Below are positions 32,748-52,357 of a stretch of DNA of 64,000 bases, piece by piece. The stretch is from positions 62,001 through 126,000 of the forward strand of contig MPCU01000005.1 in NCBI GenBank assembly GCA_001874305.1, read 5' to 3'. Source of the stretch: Bacteriovorax sp. MedPE-SWde (lineage in GTDB: Bacteria; Bdellovibrionota; Bacteriovoracia; Bacteriovoracales; Bacteriovoracaceae). Positions within the stretch are counted from its first letter, which is position 1; every line of letters begins with the position of its first letter. Made by a program: the position numbers and the translations under genes. The notes beneath the pieces were generated by a model. That model searched no databases, was not told the DNA's origin, and saw only the letters and a list, made by a program, of their open reading frames with translations.

Positions 32748-34286
32748 TTAAATTTGTTCCACCAGATATAAGTTTTCTGTGCAGAAACTTTGTAAATACT
32801 TTGTTTCACCATTAGTGAAGTCTATTCTCGCATTTATTACTCCAAAGTCATGACTAACCACAAAAGCTCGCTCGGAGATACCCGTCATCTCCCTACTAAA
32901 TGTACCGTCTTTATCCATGAAATAAATGTCATACGAGCCCGTCTCCTGGGCTGAAGACACATTTGCCCGAAAGTCCTTTAAATTCTTATCCAAATTAATC
33001 TGTATTACGCAGGAGTTCGCTCCCTCCATTATATTAAAAAGTCTTTTAATATAATTTACGTATTCACTTGATGGAATTACGGCCTTTTTTGACTTTCTAA
33101 AACCTAGATACACAACTTCTTCATCACCTATCGCAAGATAATTCCTAAACGAAGCCTCTCTTATCGGCAACTTTACCTTATATCTATTAAGCGCAAGCTT
33201 CTTTGAGGTCTGACCACGATTAAAAAAGCTTACGAACTTCTGATCGATATCTATTTTAGCCAGTGTTTTTGCAACAATATTCTCTTCAAATAGATCAACT
33301 GCCACATACTTAGATTTTATTAGATGAGGTTCATCATATGTGACCTCGCCTTGAGTGATATGCAGAATTTTTTGCGCAACTCTGCCCTTAAAGTCCATAT
33401 ATTTAATCATATGATTACCTGGTATAACATCAAGGTAAAGCTCAAAACGGTATCTACTACCCTCATCAACCACTTTATATCTTTCATTAAGGTAAATTTT
33501 CTTTTTAAACTTACCCTCGATGGTGGTGGAATCAACATCACTACCTAAGTCTATCAATAGATGTGATCCATACTCTTCAGATACATTCTGACTATCCAAG
33601 ATTTGTGAAAAGGCATCAGTCTGAAACACAGGAATATTAAAAAGTAGGTCTTTTTGAGCACTTACCTCAAAATTTGTGCGTACCAATCCACGAGATGCCA
33701 CAGAAGCTCGAAAGGTTGAATAGTCACTACCATGACTAGTCACTGGAATACTTATACTACCTGTCCCATTATCACTAACAACACTATTTAAATCATAATA
33801 GGGAACTAAATCAAAGTCTGATATAGTTACGATCTGTTTTCCCTTAATTCCTATACTTGTTAGCTGAACTTTGAATTGTCCTTTAGACTTTTTGGAATAA
33901 GCTGATTGTATTATCTTACTATAATCAATTACGGGCGCTGCTGGCTTCTTTGAAGGGTCAAAACCTAGCTTTTTTAGCTCAGGTAGCGATACCACAGGCC
34001 GCTTTGTCTTTAATTTCTTTTTATTACTTTCGTATGAAAAGAAGACCATTTCTTCTTGTTTGGCTTTTTTCTTAGTAGCAGATAACTGACTACTCACCTT
34101 ATCTGTCTTTTCTAAAATAGCATTGGTTTTATTCCAATCAATGAGCTCTATCTTACTTTCTATACTGATACCACGAAGCTCAATACGATCTTTAGCTGTA
34201 AACAAAGAAGCTCCTGCACTAAGAGGCAGTAGAGTAGTCATTATAAATATAAGTGTGAGAAATAGCTTTCTCAGGGAATATAGCAT
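32748..34286 (-). CDS. Exported protein of unknown function (512 aa)
   Basis: I do not recognise the family. An N-terminal signal (MLYSLRKLFLTLIFIMTTLL, cleavage after SAGA) is followed by a Lys-rich helical linker (about residues 60-110), then strand-rich domains with Ser/Thr/Asp-rich turns (about 130-300) and a C-terminal part with two Cys (SCVIQINLDKN and QSFCTEN) that could pair. No catalytic motif is visible. It precedes the small barrel gene by 9 bp and is probably periplasmic or surface exposed. The upstream gap to the ATP synthase terminator is short, and no clear promoter was identified. Confidence 0.72.
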   Translation of the reverse strand: MLYSLRKLFLTLIFIMTTLLPLSAGASLFTAKDRIELRGISIESKIELIDWNKTNAILEKTDKVSSQLSATKKKAKQEEMVFFSYESNKKKLKTKRPVVSLPELKKLGFDPSKKPAAPVIDYSKIIQSAYSKKSKGQFKVQLTSIGIKGKQIVTISDFDLVPYYDLNSVVSDNGTGSISIPVTSHGSDYSTFRASVASRGLVRTNFEVSAQKDLLFNIPVFQTDAFSQILDSQNVSEEYGSHLLIDLGSDVDSTTIEGKFKKKIYLNERYKVVDEGSRYRFELYLDVIPGNHMIKYMDFKGRVAQKILHITQGEVTYDEPHLIKSKYVAVDLFEENIVAKTLAKIDIDQKFVSFFNRGQTSKKLALNRYKVKLPIREASFRNYLAIGDEEVVYLGFRKSKKAVIPSSEYVNYIKRLFNIMEGANSCVIQINLDKNLKDFRANVSSAQETGSYDIYFMDKDGTFSREMTGISERAFVVSHDFGVINARIDFTNGETKYLQSFCTENLYLVEQI

Positions 34287-45218: not shown

Positions 45219-46775
45219 TTACTTACCTATACAGAAATTAGAAAAAATATTATTTAGAACATCATCAGGTGACACAACACCAATAAGTTCTGAAATCTTT
45301 CCTTCTAGAATCCGAGATTCTGAGGAGATGATACCTATATCGCTTAAGTTATTGATATTATGATGAAACTCACTAAATACCTGAGTGATTTCCTCAATCT
45401 TTATCCTATGCCTACTAATTAGAATTGGATCAGAGGACTTAAGTAATTGATATTTCGAAACAACATTCTTTGTTAACTCAGAAACAATACAGAGACCTGC
45501 AACTGGTTCTATAGGACCAGTTTGAGATTGTGGTTCTATAGGACCAAGAAATTTTGCCCCCATAGGACCAGATTCAGAAACTGAACTAAGTGGTTCTATA
45601 GGACCAGAATTATCTGCCCCTGTAGGACCATTATTAAGTGGTCCCATAGGACCAACTTCTAATAATTCACTATTATTGTTTTTACTAGAAGTATTAGAAA
45701 CATAGTAATGTGTAGCTTGTGGCAGCTTTGAGCTTAATTCATTTACACTAACTTTATTCGTCAATTGATCAACATGAGTAAAAATTATCATGTCAAAAGA
45801 TGTATCTTTTATAGCAGAAAACTTAAAATCATCGACTTCATTAACATTAACAAGAAGTACTTTAAAGAAACCTTCATCAAGAAGATTTACAGATCTCTTT
45901 ATCCCCTCTTCTTCGATAACATCAGTTGTTTCTCTTAGACCTGCAGTATCCACTAACCTAAAGGTATTTGTCCCTAAGCTTATATACTCAGTAATAAAAT
46001 CTCGAGTTGTTCCAGCAATGTCAGAAACAATTGATCTCGAATCATTCAAAATAAGATTAAATAAACTACTCTTACCAGCATTAGGCTCACCTACTAGAAC
46101 AACGTCTGGAGACATGAGACTTTTACTTGATATCGAAACAGACTTATTAAGTGACTCAATTATTGATGAAAGCTTAGATACTGAATCTTTTAAAAGTTTT
46201 TCAGACTCTTCTTCGCCAACATCTTCCATAAAGTCTATATTCATCTCAATGGCGGACTTAAGCTTTAGATATGAGGCCGAAAGTTCCTTATATCGCTTAT
46301 AAAGCTTTCCATTCAGCAAATCTAAGCCTTGATCAAGCATAAGAGATGAGGAGGCATTTAATAATGCATCTAGGCCCTCAACTTGTGCCAAAGTAAGCTT
46401 CTTGTTAAGCAATGCTCTATAAGTGAATTCACCCTGGCTAGCTAAACGAAATAATCCACTAGCGACAAATGATTCAATAATTCTCTTTAAGTTAAAAATA
46501 TTCCCATGGGCAGATATCTCTAAGATATTCTCACCGTTATAACTTCTAGGGCCCTTAAAAAAAGTTATTACAACTTCATCTAAAACTATTTCATTAAAAT
46601 AGAGATTACAAAACGTAGCTTTACGCTCTTCAAGTTCTGAAATATTTATTTTAAAAAAATCTTTAAGGTAATCGAGAGAAGGGAATCCAGATAAACGGAT
46701 GATCCCTATCGCTGTATTTTCAGACAGGCCTGTCGAACATGCAACAATAGGAAGATCATCAGTTATATAATTCAT
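45219..46775 (-). CDS. mnmE: tRNA modification GTPase MnmE (TrmE) with a repeat insertion
   Basis: Potassium-activated GTPase that works with MnmG on U34 of tRNAs. The N-terminal folate-binding domain (GIIRLSG, FKGPRSYNGENILEISAHGN) is complete. The G domain has P-loop GEPNAGKSS (229-237), G2 IAGTTRD, G3 DTAG (276-279) and an unusual G4, THVD at 333-336 instead of NKxD. The C-terminal FCIGK with the functional Cys is intact. At 518 aa it is over 60 residues longer than E. coli MnmE. The excess is mostly residues 375-424, directly after the G5 region: six GPxxP/A peptides, each encoded by a 16-bp palindrome. It begins at the yidC stop (TAATG). Confidence 0.95.
   Translation of the reverse strand: MNYITDDLPIVACSTGLSENTAIGIIRLSGFPSLDYLKDFFKINISELEERKATFCNLYFNEIVLDEVVITFFKGPRSYNGENILEISAHGNIFNLKRIIESFVASGLFRLASQGEFTYRALLNKKLTLAQVEGLDALLNASSSLMLDQGLDLLNGKLYKRYKELSASYLKLKSAIEMNIDFMEDVGEEESEKLLKDSVSKLSSIIESLNKSVSISSKSLMSPDVVLVGEPNAGKSSLFNLILNDSRSIVSDIAGTTRDFITEYISLGTNTFRLVDTAGLRETTDVIEEEGIKRSVNLLDEGFFKVLLVNVNEVDDFKFSAIKDTSFDMIIFTHVDQLTNKVSVNELSSKLPQATHYYVSNTSSKNNNSELLEVGPMGPLNNGPTGADNSGPIEPLSSVSESGPMGAKFLGPIEPQSQTGPIEPVAGLCIVSELTKNVVSKYQLLKSSDPILISRHRIKIEEITQVFSEFHHNINNLSDIGIISSESRILEGKISELIGVVSPDDVLNNIFSNFCIGK
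45504..45654. repeat. Six in-frame 16-bp palindromic repeats inside mnmE
   Basis: Copies start at 45504, 45531, 45555, 45591, 45615 and 45639, spaced 27, 24, 36, 24 and 24 bp, all multiples of three. On the coding strand each begins TGGTCCTA and ends GGACCA, GAACCA or GGGGCA. The copy at 45639 is identical to one in the parB-bactofilin gap. Intervening codons differ between copies. The encoded peptides are GPMGP, GPTGA, GPIEP, GPMGA, GPIEP and GPIEP. Confidence 0.95.
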
Positions 46776-48916: not shown

Positions 48917-49022
48917 GGCCCACAAGGTCAATGGCCCATAAAATTTTTTGTCGATATAAATTGTGAGAATATATGGCCATGCGTAAAAAACCAGTTTTTT
49001 TAATGGCCTTCATTCTGAGGCC
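48917..49022. promoter_or_regulatory. GGCC cluster upstream of dnaA
   Basis: Five GGCC tetramers (48917, 48933, 48975, 49005, 49019) lie within 106 bp of the rpmH-dnaA gap, ahead of the chosen dnaA ATG at 49077. No clear DnaA box or confident -10/-35 pair was found here. The cluster mirrors the one in oriC. Confidence 0.7.
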
Positions 49023-49076: not shown

Positions 49077-50648
49077 ATGCAGGGGAACTTTCCTTTTGAT
49101 CAGTTTTTCAAAACTGACAGTTCAAACCAAAATAATATCAATAATATAGCTCAAGATACAGTTACAGAACCTGTTCAAGAGCCAATGAATAATCAATCAT
49201 TTACAGAGTCTTTCTTCAGCGAAGAAGAAATTGCTATGATGAACACTGAAATTCATAAGTCTTTGATATCACTTATAGCACCTCAGAAGTACTCAGCGTT
49301 CTTTGAGGGCTCATTTAACCTAAAAAATATTGAGGAAACAAAAGCTGTATTCTCAACAACAACTACCTTTATTAAGACAATGATTGAAAAGAATCTAGAG
49401 CAAATATCTGATTCTATTATCAATACCTTAGGTAAGGCTTATGAGATTGAGATAATTACTGAACCAAGTAATAACAGTACTTTACCTCAAAACACTCATA
49501 TTCCATCAATGAAGCCCACAAGAGCTTCTGAAGTAACTTTTTCACTAGACTTAGAGCCAAAGAAGAATGAACTAAGATCTAAAGTTGAATCTAAGTACAT
49601 TGACCATATGGAAGCCGAATATTCAGGCATTCTTATTGACCCATCTAAGAGATTTACAAATTTCGTTGTTGGTCCATCAAATAACTTGGCCAATGCAGCG
49701 GCAATAGCTATTAGCAAAAACCCTGGAAAATCAGGGAAATACCCTTCTCTTTATATGCATTCAAATTCTGGACTTGGTAAGACTCACCTACTCCACGCAA
49801 TGGCGAATGGTATTAAAGACAATTACCCACATTTTGTAATCTGTCTTATTACGGCTAGAGATTTCATGAAAGAAATGATCGACTCTATTAGAGAAGAAAG
49901 ACTTCACGATTTCAGAAAGAAGTATTCTGAAAAAGTAGATGTTCTTATGATCGATGATATTCATGAGCTTGGTGGTAAGGAAGGAACACAAAGAGAAATA
50001 TTCCATATCTTTAACGAGCTTTATAATCGTGGAAAACAGCTCATCTTCACGTCTGATAAGACTCCACAAGAAATAAAAGGACTTGAAGATAGAATTAGAA
50101 CAAGACTCCAATGGGGACTTGTTGTAGATATTCAAAGACCAGACTTTGAGACTAGACTAGCTATTATTAAAACAAAAGCTGATGAGCTAGACCTCTATCT
50201 AACAGACGATATTATCAATCTTATTGCATGTAATATAAAGACAAGCATTCGTGAACTAGAAGGTGCCCTAATCAAACTGAGCGCGTTTACAGACATCATG
50301 AGTGTAAGTATTGATGTAGAAATGGTTAGAGACGTTTTAGCGCTTAAAGAACATGAAGAAGAGAGAAAAGTAACACTTGAATCTGTTGCTAAAACAACAT
50401 CACAACACTTTAGAATTCCAATAGCAGATCTTAAGTCAAAATCACGAACTAAGGATATTGCAAACGCAAGATTCATAGCTATGTACCTATCAAGAAAGAT
50501 CGTAAATGCTACACATGAAGAAATTGGAAGATTCTATGGTGGCCGCGATCACTCTTCAGTTGTTCACGCTGAGCAAAAAATCACATTACGCTTAGCAACA
50601 GATGTAAATTTATCTAAAGACATCATGACAATCGAAAATACTTTATAG
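49077..50648 (+). CDS. dnaA: Replication initiator DnaA
   Basis: Binds DnaA boxes and melts oriC in its ATP form. The frame opens with GTG at 49023, but ATG 49077 has a GGGAG ribosome site and is preferred (523 aa). Domain I (KSLISLIAPQKYSAFFEGSF) is followed by a linker, then AAA+ domain III with FVVGPSNNLANAAA, Walker A NSGLGKTHLLHA and Walker B LMIDDIHELGGKEG. Domain IV contains the DnaA signature GGRDHSSVVHAEQKI. It ends at an intrinsic terminator, so dnaN must be transcribed separately from a start inside or near oriC. Confidence 0.97.
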   Translation: MQGNFPFDQFFKTDSSNQNNINNIAQDTVTEPVQEPMNNQSFTESFFSEEEIAMMNTEIHKSLISLIAPQKYSAFFEGSFNLKNIEETKAVFSTTTTFIKTMIEKNLEQISDSIINTLGKAYEIEIITEPSNNSTLPQNTHIPSMKPTRASEVTFSLDLEPKKNELRSKVESKYIDHMEAEYSGILIDPSKRFTNFVVGPSNNLANAAAIAISKNPGKSGKYPSLYMHSNSGLGKTHLLHAMANGIKDNYPHFVICLITARDFMKEMIDSIREERLHDFRKKYSEKVDVLMIDDIHELGGKEGTQREIFHIFNELYNRGKQLIFTSDKTPQEIKGLEDRIRTRLQWGLVVDIQRPDFETRLAIIKTKADELDLYLTDDIINLIACNIKTSIRELEGALIKLSAFTDIMSVSIDVEMVRDVLALKEHEEERKVTLESVAKTTSQHFRIPIADLKSKSRTKDIANARFIAMYLSRKIVNATHEEIGRFYGGRDHSSVVHAEQKITLRLATDVNLSKDIMTIENTL

Positions 50649-51244
50649 AAATACTCCGAAATAATGGCCGACTAATTCACAAGGCCTTTTGACTAGTCAC
50701 CCCGGCACTGTCCGGGGTTTTTTATTATCCACGGCCCAACTAACTTATCCACAAATTATGACTAGTCATGTGGATAATATGCTATGGCCCAGGGCCTCAT
50801 TTGCAGGTTTAATGGGCCATTCGTTGAAAACTAATCCACGGCCGGGGAAAATATATTGTTAACATTCCCCACATGTGAATAAAAAAGTTATCAACATGTT
50901 TAGAAGTTGTGAGTAAATGACTGGCCAAAACAATGAAAAGGCCAAACAAAATAACGCGGGCCTAAATTATCAACAAAAGGCCGTTGATAAGATTCTAATA
51001 AATGGGGCCATATGTTATGAACCACATAATATACGTATTAAGATATGCGTCGAAAAAAAAAGATCAACAGCTGCCAACAATGACAGAAATGGCTAGACAA
51101 GCATTACTAATAGGTGTTTGATAGTTTTCAACTTATCCACAGGATATATAATATATAATATAAATATAAAGAGAGAGAAACTAACTTGATTAGTTGTTCT
51201 TCGGATTATAAAAATTAGTAAATATAATTCATCAGGAATCTTGT
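50649..51244. other. Chromosomal origin oriC between dnaA and dnaN
   Basis: This 596-bp gap holds perfect DnaA boxes TTATCCACA at 50745-50753, 51133-51141 and, reversed, 50769-50777. Near-perfect ones are TTATCCACG 50725-50733, TTATCAACA 50888-50896 and 50967-50975, and reversed TTATCAACG 50982-50990. An almost pure A/T stretch (51144-51170, with TATATAATATATAATATAAA), next to the last perfect box, is the likely unwinding element. Twelve GGCC tetramers crowd 50666-51009. A 59-codon open frame at 50917-51096 overlaps the boxes and is not called as a gene. Confidence 0.93.
50699..50723 (+). terminator. Intrinsic terminator after dnaA
   Basis: Stem ACCCCGG/CCGGGGT (7 bp) with loop CACTGT is followed by a run of T to 50723. 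It ends dnaA transcription about 50 bp past the stop codon and isolates it from oriC and dnaN. Confidence 0.9.
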
Positions 51245-52357
51245 ATGAGAATAAAAATTGATACAGAAAATTTAAGAGATGCTTTAAATAAAATTCTAAC
51301 TGTAATTGATAAGAGAAATTCAAGACCAATATTAACATATACACTCTTCACTGTTAGCAATGAGAGAATATATTTATCAGCAACAGATCTTGAAGTATCA
51401 GCAAAGTATTCACTAAACGCTGAAACAGAAGGGAATGCTAGCTTTTGTATAAATGCTAAAAATCTATTCGATATATTAAAAGAACTTCCTAACACAGATA
51501 TCCACATGGAGTTGGAAGATGGTGAAAATCTCCTAAAAATAAATTGCAATGACATACATTACTCACTGTTAATTTATGAAAGTGAAGAATATCCTAATTT
51601 ACATTTTGGTTCTGATAACAAGTTCCAAATTGATTCAGATAATTTATCTAATCTAATAAGCAAAACTTCATATGCAATTTCTAATGATGAAACAAGACTT
51701 CACTTCAATGGAATTTTCCTACAAGAAGTTGAAACAAAACTTAGAGCAGTAGCAACTGATGGACATAGACTTTCATTAATTGAAACTGACTTATCAACAG
51801 AAAATAATGAAGCTCTTACAAATGGAGTAATCATTCCTAGAAAGGGTGTTTACGAAATTAAAAAAGTTGCTGAATCATATCCAAATACAACACTTGAAGT
51901 ATCAGTAGATGATTCATACATGTATATAAATGCAAAAGAAGAATACCATTTAGGTATTAGATTAATTGCAAGAGAATATCCTAAATACCAATCTGTTATT
52001 CCAGGTAAAACTACATTCACTTTAACAGCTGATAAAGATGCAATCTTCAACGCTGTTAAAAGAATTAAAATTATGTCGAATGAAAAATCAAACGGTGTAA
52101 AAGTTTTAATCAAAGATAATAGCTTAACAGTTATGGCCAACCACCCATCTCTTGGTGATGCTATGGAAACTATTCCAGTAGATTACGATGGTAAAGAAAT
52201 GGAAATAGGTTTTAATGCAAAATACTTAATGGATTCGTTTAGTATTTTAGAAGCCGAAGATGTGATCCTAGAGCTTAACAATGAGTTAAGTCCTGTCATC
52301 GTAAGATCAAATCAATTACAGAACTATATTGGTATTATTATGCCACTTAGAATCTGA
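51245..52357 (+). CDS. dnaN: DNA polymerase III beta sliding clamp
   Basis: Ring-shaped processivity factor of the replicative polymerase. Three repeated clamp folds span about residues 1-125, 126-250 and 251-370. Recognisable stretches include RNSRPILTYTLF, FNGIFLQEVETKLRAVATDG followed by HRLSLIE, and the C-terminal NYIGIIMPLRI with the hydrophobic pocket end. 370 aa is normal. It starts after AT-rich DNA with an AGGA-type ribosome site (CAGGAATCTTGT before ATG) and precedes recF by 9 bp. Confidence 0.98.
   Translation: MRIKIDTENLRDALNKILTVIDKRNSRPILTYTLFTVSNERIYLSATDLEVSAKYSLNAETEGNASFCINAKNLFDILKELPNTDIHMELEDGENLLKINCNDIHYSLLIYESEEYPNLHFGSDNKFQIDSDNLSNLISKTSYAISNDETRLHFNGIFLQEVETKLRAVATDGHRLSLIETDLSTENNEALTNGVIIPRKGVYEIKKVAESYPNTTLEVSVDDSYMYINAKEEYHLGIRLIAREYPKYQSVIPGKTTFTLTADKDAIFNAVKRIKIMSNEKSNGVKVLIKDNSLTVMANHPSLGDAMETIPVDYDGKEMEIGFNAKYLMDSFSILEAEDVILELNNELSPVIVRSNQLQNYIGIIMPLRI

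Follow-up and report, generated by a model that had tools for sequence, protein, structure and literature searches.

Why should twelve copies of a four-letter palindrome, GGCC, be crowded into 344 bp at the replication origin of an AT-rich genome? The question is posed by the intergenic region between dnaA and dnaN of Bacteriovorax sp. MedPE-SWde, and it was addressed here through the surrounding 64,000 nucleotides (the window), the remainder of the genome, and the corresponding loci of relatives. The reading that we favor, at a probability of roughly 60%, is that the GGCC cluster constitutes an origin methylation array, that an orphan C5-cytosine methyltransferase, termed P0001, serves it, and that the array acts in the control of DnaA.

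The Origin Region and Its GGCC Palindromes

The dnaA-dnaN gap is regarded as oriC because it is flanked by these two genes, contains several DnaA boxes, and coincides with a change in the sign of the GC skew (at 48-52 kb of the window). Its features are collected in Table 1. The boxes are followed by an AT-rich stretch that is free of GGCC and probably serves as the DNA unwinding element. The dnaA gene probably starts at ATG 49077 rather than at GTG 49023, since homologues align from residue ~15-21.

Table 1. Features of the origin region (window positions) and the candidate methyltransferase gene of the same genome (G000).
Feature	Position	Strand	Basis or remark
oriC (dnaA-dnaN intergenic region)	50649..51244	+	dnaA/dnaN flanks, GC-skew switch, DnaA boxes
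GGCC palindromes, n = 12	50666..51009	none	starts 50666, 50683, 50733, 50786, 50793, 50815, 50840, 50923, 50940, 50959, 50979, 51006
Composite DnaA box-GGCC, TTATCCAC then GGCC	50725..50736	+	sequence; aligned place kept in 5/5 origins
GGCC with box-like sequence on both sides, TAATCCAC then GGCC then GGGGAAAA	50832..50851	none	sequence
Composite DnaA box-GGCC, TTATCAAC then GGCC	50979..50990	-	sequence
DnaA box TTATCCACA without GGCC	50745..50753	+	box scan
DnaA box TTATCCACA without GGCC	50769..50777	-	box scan
DnaA box-like TTATCAACA	50888..50896	+	box scan
DnaA box-like TTATCAACA	50967..50975	+	box scan
DnaA box TTATCCACA without GGCC, adjoining the AT-rich stretch	51133..51141	+	box scan
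AT-rich stretch without GGCC, probable DNA unwinding element	51142..51185	+	sequence; inferred from neighboring DnaA box
Intrinsic-terminator-like hairpin 3' of dnaA	50699..50718	+	
dnaA, probable ATG start	49077..50648	+	ORF open from GTG 49023
dnaN	51245..52357	+	
Second GGCC cluster, 5 in 106 bp, divergent rpmH-dnaA gap, putative dnaA promoter region	48917..49022	none	starts 48917, 48933, 48975, 49005, 49019
10-bp palindrome TGACTAGTCA, two copies	50690..50699, 50759..50768 (oriC)		second origin-linked element of the genus
Candidate GGCC METHYLTRANSFERASE P0001, C5-cytosine type, 397 aa	G000 contig 4:128202-129392	-	PF00145

The positions of all twelve GGCC in the original prediction are exact. 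Twelve copies lie between 50660 and 51015, whereas 2000 dinucleotide-preserving shuffles contain 1.98 on average and never more than 7. The expectation is therefore about two copies and not, as had been supposed, fewer than one; GGCC is 2.63-fold over-represented genome-wide, so that its background is not low despite the AT-rich genome. Across the genome (3.76 Mb in 15 contigs), this background amounts to 2.6 GGCC per kb, as estimated from a 464-kb sample in which the densest other 344 bp has 6. Density in the dnaA-dnaN gap is ~20 per kb versus 3.1 per kb in intergenic DNA outside the origin. Places where three GGCC occur within ~70 bp number 51 on the forward strand genome-wide; five of these overlap one another in the dnaA-dnaN gap, and another is located immediately upstream of dnaA. 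Among the places listed in this whole-genome scan, only the dnaA-dnaN gap has more than two overlapping matches. Neither the scan nor the 464-kb sample revealed a similar density at many unrelated intergenic regions. The prediction had also counted "only two" GGCC in the other intergenic gaps, a number to which the five of the rpmH-dnaA gap must be added. This dnaA-upstream cluster recurs in four relatives, with 4-5 GGCC in the matching 500 bp.

Two side observations concern the same neighborhood. Besides its copies at the origin, the palindrome TGACTAGTCA has an additional copy in the window at 33733-33742, outside oriC. At the origin lie all three genome copies of one congener (G057) and three of the four copies of another (G012), and the palindrome is probably bound there by a further protein of the genus. 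In addition, the predicted MnmE (45219-46775, minus strand) bears, beyond its GTPase region, a long insert in which GPxGP/GPIEP repeats abound; such an insert seems unusual for a conserved protein.

Conservation of the Cluster in the Family

The comparison was centered on the family in its wide sense (Bacteriovoracaceae/Halobacteriovoraceae, Bdellovibrionota), with placement deduced from named methyltransferase matches among public genomes. Forty dnaA-dnaN gaps of the family contain 146 GGCC versus 25.4 expected, so that GGCC ranks first in enrichment among the 256 tetramers, ahead even of the words of the DnaA box; these totals are slightly low, as the gap of G012 entered them as 407 of ~758 bp with 13 of its 17 GGCC. 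The 18 gaps sampled from the phylum outside this family are enriched in DnaA-box words alone, and no GGCC cluster was found among them.

When a cluster is defined as at least four GGCC in the gap, it occurs in 18 of the 40 family genomes. These include all nine members of the nearest clade, comprising three genera in the DnaA tree, together with further scattered lineages, while none of the ten deep lineages of the family in that tree has one. Conservation in relatives, one of the checks proposed with the original prediction, thus holds throughout the near clade (9/9). Every family genome that was searched encodes an ortholog of P0001, and the cluster is missing from more than half of them; no cluster was seen outside the family.

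Fusion of GGCC to DnaA Boxes

It had been stated that the origin GGCC have no longer context in common. This does not hold, as a DnaA box directly abuts about a third of them. With an abutting box defined as a sequence directly beside GGCC that agrees with TTATCCAC at 6 or more of 8 positions, 52 of the 146 sites in the 40 family gaps are fused in this way, versus 4.5 expected from random placement. Similarly, CAC immediately followed by GGCC is found at 43 origin sites versus 2.5 expected, and at 48 of 1324 GGCC elsewhere. One composite place, reading TTWTCCACGGCC or TTATTCACGGCC, is kept throughout an alignment of five origins from the two nearest genera. Most of the other GGCC positions turn over between these five origins and their density persists, which is the mode of evolution of a regulatory word array and not of a fixed multi-site sequence. 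The first G of GGCC doubles as the ninth base of the fused boxes, and boxes with a G at this position are probably weaker for DnaA.

These fusions raise the prospect that DnaA, or a partner, reads TTATCCACGGCC as one longer site and that methylation has no role. The in-register abutment at about a third of the origin sites and the composite place kept in 5/5 origins would both be natural outcomes of such an extended site. However, 94 of the 146 origin GGCC have no abutting box, and these origins also contain many boxes with a terminal A and no GGCC. The five GGCC of the rpmH-dnaA gap include only one with a weak box-like flank, and synonymous sites throughout the genome, remote from DnaA boxes, also show the drive toward GGCC (see below). 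On balance, an extended DnaA site is an unlikely account of the cluster, albeit the strongest of its competitors.

Some members of the family have origins of another appearance. Those of G052, G037, and G046 (loci L116, L099, and L101) have 19, 16, and 15 box matches in the gap, respectively, and box-GGCC fusions of the TCCAC type are absent from these three dense-box gaps. From the dense-box origins, it looks as if origin design differs between lineages.

A Genome-Wide Drive toward GGCC

The over-representation of GGCC in this genome is specific to the word, with CCGG, GCGC, and CGCG at 0.91-1.11 in the same 464-kb sample. It is most evident at synonymous positions. Among GCC and GCT alanine codons, GCC accounts for 86% when the preceding codon has G as its last base, for 22-23% when that base is T or C, and for 10% when it is A. 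The odds ratio of GC(C/T) preceded by G versus A is 58.6, versus 0.9-1.7 in the 15 other pyrimidine-ending codon boxes, ruling out general codon-pair context as the cause. Taken by itself, so nearly complete a synonymous preference for GGCC is a remarkable feature of the genome and calls for explanation. Based on ~18 kb per genome, the odds ratio exceeds 2 in 32 of 40 family genomes versus 1 of 20 outside (p = 7e-9), and a drive limited to the family in this manner indicates that a GGCC-recognizing process acts on the whole genome in the enzyme-bearing family. The family, the enzyme, and the drive go back to a common ancestor, and their association therefore counts as a single evolutionary event.

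The direction of the drive may offer a clue to its origin. At synonymous sites, AGCC/GGCT is depleted to 0.55 and GACC/GGTC is not, placing the bias at the outer base pair. The pattern resembles the trace expected if deaminated 5-methylcytosine at the outer position underwent T:G repair, by analogy with Dcm/Vsr. Vsr itself (PF03852) was detected in 1 of 59 family genomes and is absent from the other 58, ruling it out as the T:G repair enzyme. A uniform drive at the outer C, acting at the level of DNA, is only partly supported. Leucine codons respond weakly, the value being 0.65 after GGC, 0.57-0.61 after the remaining GGN codons, and 0.21 after AGC; in intergenic DNA, moreover, the inner C and the outer C are both raised.

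A bias in mutation or repair toward GGCC, for example through very-short-patch-like T:G repair linked to a methyltransferase, could conceivably have produced the origin cluster as a functionless by-product. The 2.6-fold genome-wide excess of GGCC and the synonymous excess at the outer base pair are what such a bias would generate. Nevertheless, it would leave unexplained the fusion to DnaA boxes (52 sites versus 4.5 expected), and it does not fit the difference between 3.1 GGCC per kb of intergenic DNA outside the origin and 20 per kb in the gap. Moreover, clusters are absent from family genomes that have the same bias, including G029 and G052. A by-product of this kind is accordingly improbable.

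The Candidate Methyltransferase P0001

As GGCC lacks adenine, a methylation mark on it must sit on cytosine, and adenine methylation is ruled out by the word itself. Two C5-cytosine methyltransferases, P0001 and P0002, are encoded by this genome. P0001 matches the C5-methyltransferase profiles PF00145 (E 1.2e-72) and TIGR00675 (above the cut-off). An ortholog is present in 59/59 family genomes at 45-79% identity, as is a PF00145 protein, and none was found outside the family in the phylum sample, where the best match has 35% identity. It neighbors Ppx/GppA, a ~210-aa protein, and an MnmA-like gene, and this arrangement is conserved, with the MnmA-like gene in 33 and the ~210-aa gene in 28 of 45 family loci. 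No endonuclease family was recognized among the neighbors at either the G000 locus or the 45 family loci. For the nuclease-less GGCC methyltransferase sought by the original prediction, a C5-cytosine candidate is thus present as a core gene in 59/59 family genomes. The ~210-aa gene (L011 2615-3247, on contig 4 of G000), located just upstream of P0001, has no Pfam or NCBIfam match and is a candidate partner.

Comparison of genomes narrows the choice of enzyme. In the congeners G012 and G057, with 17 and 9 origin GGCC, respectively, the P0001 ortholog is the sole PF00145 protein. N4/N6-type enzymes of PF01555 are absent from G012, G057, and G010, all of which bear clusters, ruling out this type as the family-wide GGCC enzyme. 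P0001 is therefore the only recognized candidate if GGCC is methylated in G012 and G057. P0002 has no close counterpart in relatives and is ruled out as the cause of a cluster shared with them. Its gene (L012 765-2631, on contig 9 of G000) lies downstream of a small HTH protein and looks like part of an acquired restriction-modification locus.

An AlphaFold model of P0001 (mean pLDDT 87.5) has the C5-methyltransferase fold, with DNMT1 (Z 33.6) and M.HaeIII (1dct; Z 30.3) as structural matches; P0001 and M.HaeIII share 32% identity over 283 aligned residues. The target-recognition region of P0001 is strongly conserved in the family and falls into two main subtypes, one in cluster-bearing lineages and the other in the cluster-free deep lineages. 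In an hhalign alignment, where this region is of low certainty, R305 of P0001 faces R243 of M.HaeIII and GRFRQ (NRFRQ in the family form) faces NRVRQ, and an invariant Glu of the P0001 family faces M.HaeIII R225. The latter residue is needed for reading the first G (PMC11879396). PDB searches, hhalign, and fold comparison yield a fold that is DNMT1- or HaeIII-like, and not the target word. P0001 thus resembles M.HaeIII (GGm5CC) in its C5-methyltransferase fold and motifs; unlike it, the rest of the target-recognition region diverges, M.HaeIII belongs to a restriction-modification system, and the methylated C (inner or outer) may differ. It is quite likely, on the indirect grounds of elimination in G012 and G057 and of the family-only GGCC drive, that P0001 recognizes GGCC.

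The closest relative of P0001 outside the family, at 49% identity, is a methyltransferase of Phormidium tenue adjoined by a convergent 220-aa ORF (L151 2998-4971). This ORF matches no family and therefore did not disclose a target word by way of a neighboring nuclease. The ORF may encode a restriction endonuclease that has yet to be described, and in that case its target would indicate the specificity of the methyltransferase family.

C5-methyltransferases are most often restriction-modification enzymes, and GGCC could accordingly be a restriction site with P0001 as the modification half of the system. The Phormidium ORF, which could be a nuclease, lends itself to this view, as does the occurrence in G000 of a second, unrelated C5-methyltransferase, P0002, with an adjoining small HTH protein. 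On the other hand, restriction sites are usually avoided in genomes, whereas GGCC is enriched 2.6-fold. The core locus, whose neighbors are kept over much of the family, has no endonuclease family; presence in 59/59 genomes is unlike that of mobile restriction-modification genes, and P0002 is without a close counterpart in relatives. A role in restriction is, as a result, the least credible of the alternatives.

A Possible Mechanism of Origin Control

The GGCC arrays, their fusion to DnaA boxes, the core orphan enzyme, and the family-only drive toward GGCC are direct observations, around which a mechanism can be envisaged. P0001, a vertically inherited orphan C5-cytosine methyltransferase, would recognize and methylate GGCC, and its targets would be concentrated in oriC and the dnaA promoter region, about a third of the origin sites lying against a DnaA box. 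Passage of the replication fork would leave these sites hemimethylated. The methylation state at the edge of the box may then alter DnaA occupancy, either directly or through a competing reader, such that a newly fired origin and dnaA expression would be held back until remethylation. The target word of P0001, the base that it methylates, and the effects on DnaA and on timing are what we infer in this scheme, and an effect of methylation on initiation is judged somewhat more probable than its absence.

The original prediction envisioned methylation-dependent origin control by a GGCC methyltransferase together with a reader protein. Its first half is borne out in part by the nuclease-less core methyltransferase and by the cluster of the near clade, even though the cluster is missing in over half of the enzyme-bearing genomes. 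Its second half fares less well, as SeqA (PF03925) was detected in 0/59 family genomes and was found in the E. coli control. As a DnaA box directly adjoins about one in three sites, the system may do without a separate reader, and a dedicated reader protein is rather doubtful. Box fusion also favors, as the simpler starting hypothesis, that DnaA is affected directly, and methylation of the origin GGCC probably tunes DnaA binding.

It is tempting to extend this scheme to licensing by 5-methylcytosine, in which GGCC methylation at DnaA boxes would pick the origin copy that fires and a dedicated T:G repair would keep the mark. The outer-pair bias of the GGCC drive suggests both a dedicated repair and the outer C as the methylated base (GGC-m5C), as opposed to the inner C of M.HaeIII. 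This extended version is speculative and is thought more likely wrong than right.

Relation to Known Systems and Significance

A close parallel is with E. coli, where SeqA blocks the R5, I2, I3, and tau sites that overlap GATC (PMC4285127). The two systems share a short palindrome that is dense in oriC and at dnaA, its placement at DnaA sites, and a clade-wide orphan methyltransferase. They differ in that the word is GGCC and not GATC, the enzyme is of the C5-cytosine and not the adenine type, GGCC directly abuts TTATCCAC, no SeqA homologue is found in 59 genomes, and methylation of GGCC is here proposed. GATC occurs once in the dnaA-dnaN gap and forms no cluster.

Origin clusters of this general kind have been described for other orphan enzymes. 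Blow et al. 2016 reported conserved origin clusters for four of them, with the words GATC, TTAA (Arthrobacter), CTCGAG (Nocardia), and CTAG (m4C, Haloarchaea) (PMC4752239). The present case is like these in having a conserved, non-coding cluster of one palindrome at dnaA-dnaN (there also at orc1/cdc6) and a clade-conserved orphan methyltransferase. It is unlike them in its C5-cytosine candidate enzyme and the fusion of the word to DnaA boxes, and methylation is predicted here and was mostly measured there. The text of Blow et al. 2016 mentions neither GGCC nor Bdellovibrio or Bacteriovorax (PMC4752239). In Synechocystis, M.Ssp6803II performs orphan-type GGm4CC methylation that has been linked to replication and repair (PMC6560206). 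Unlike P0001, it is an N4-cytosine enzyme of another class, and its paper mentions neither oriC nor dnaA (PMC6560206).

Nearer to the family, the oriC of Bdellovibrio bacteriovorus, from the same phylum, likewise has DnaA boxes and an AT-rich unwinding element beside dnaA (PMC5124646, PMC11318664); unlike the family origins that carry a GGCC cluster, the sampled non-family origins of the phylum yielded none. A 2023 review on Bdellovibrio states that no initiation regulator is known, leaves methylation unmentioned, and asks whether an oriC licensing system explains the firing of a single origin in the growing filament (PMC11318664). A literature search on methylation in Bacteriovorax and Halobacteriovorax returned nothing relevant, and no case of an origin cluster with 5-methylcytosine was found in the literature searched. 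The kind of system is thus known; novelty, within the literature searched, lies in the word, the C5-cytosine class of the enzyme, the joining of the word to DnaA boxes, and the host group.

Adenine methylation is an established means of controlling initiation (GATC/SeqA), and the remaining origin clusters reported for orphan enzymes have adenine or N4-cytosine marks, the CTCGAG mark being taken as adenine methylation. If the proposal is true, the family would provide a 5-methylcytosine case of origin control, with a simple physical link between the mark and the initiator. The family is sister to Bdellovibrio, for which the above review raises the question of an oriC licensing system (PMC11318664), and cytosine methylation may set the timing of its replication in much the way that adenine methylation does in E. 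coli.
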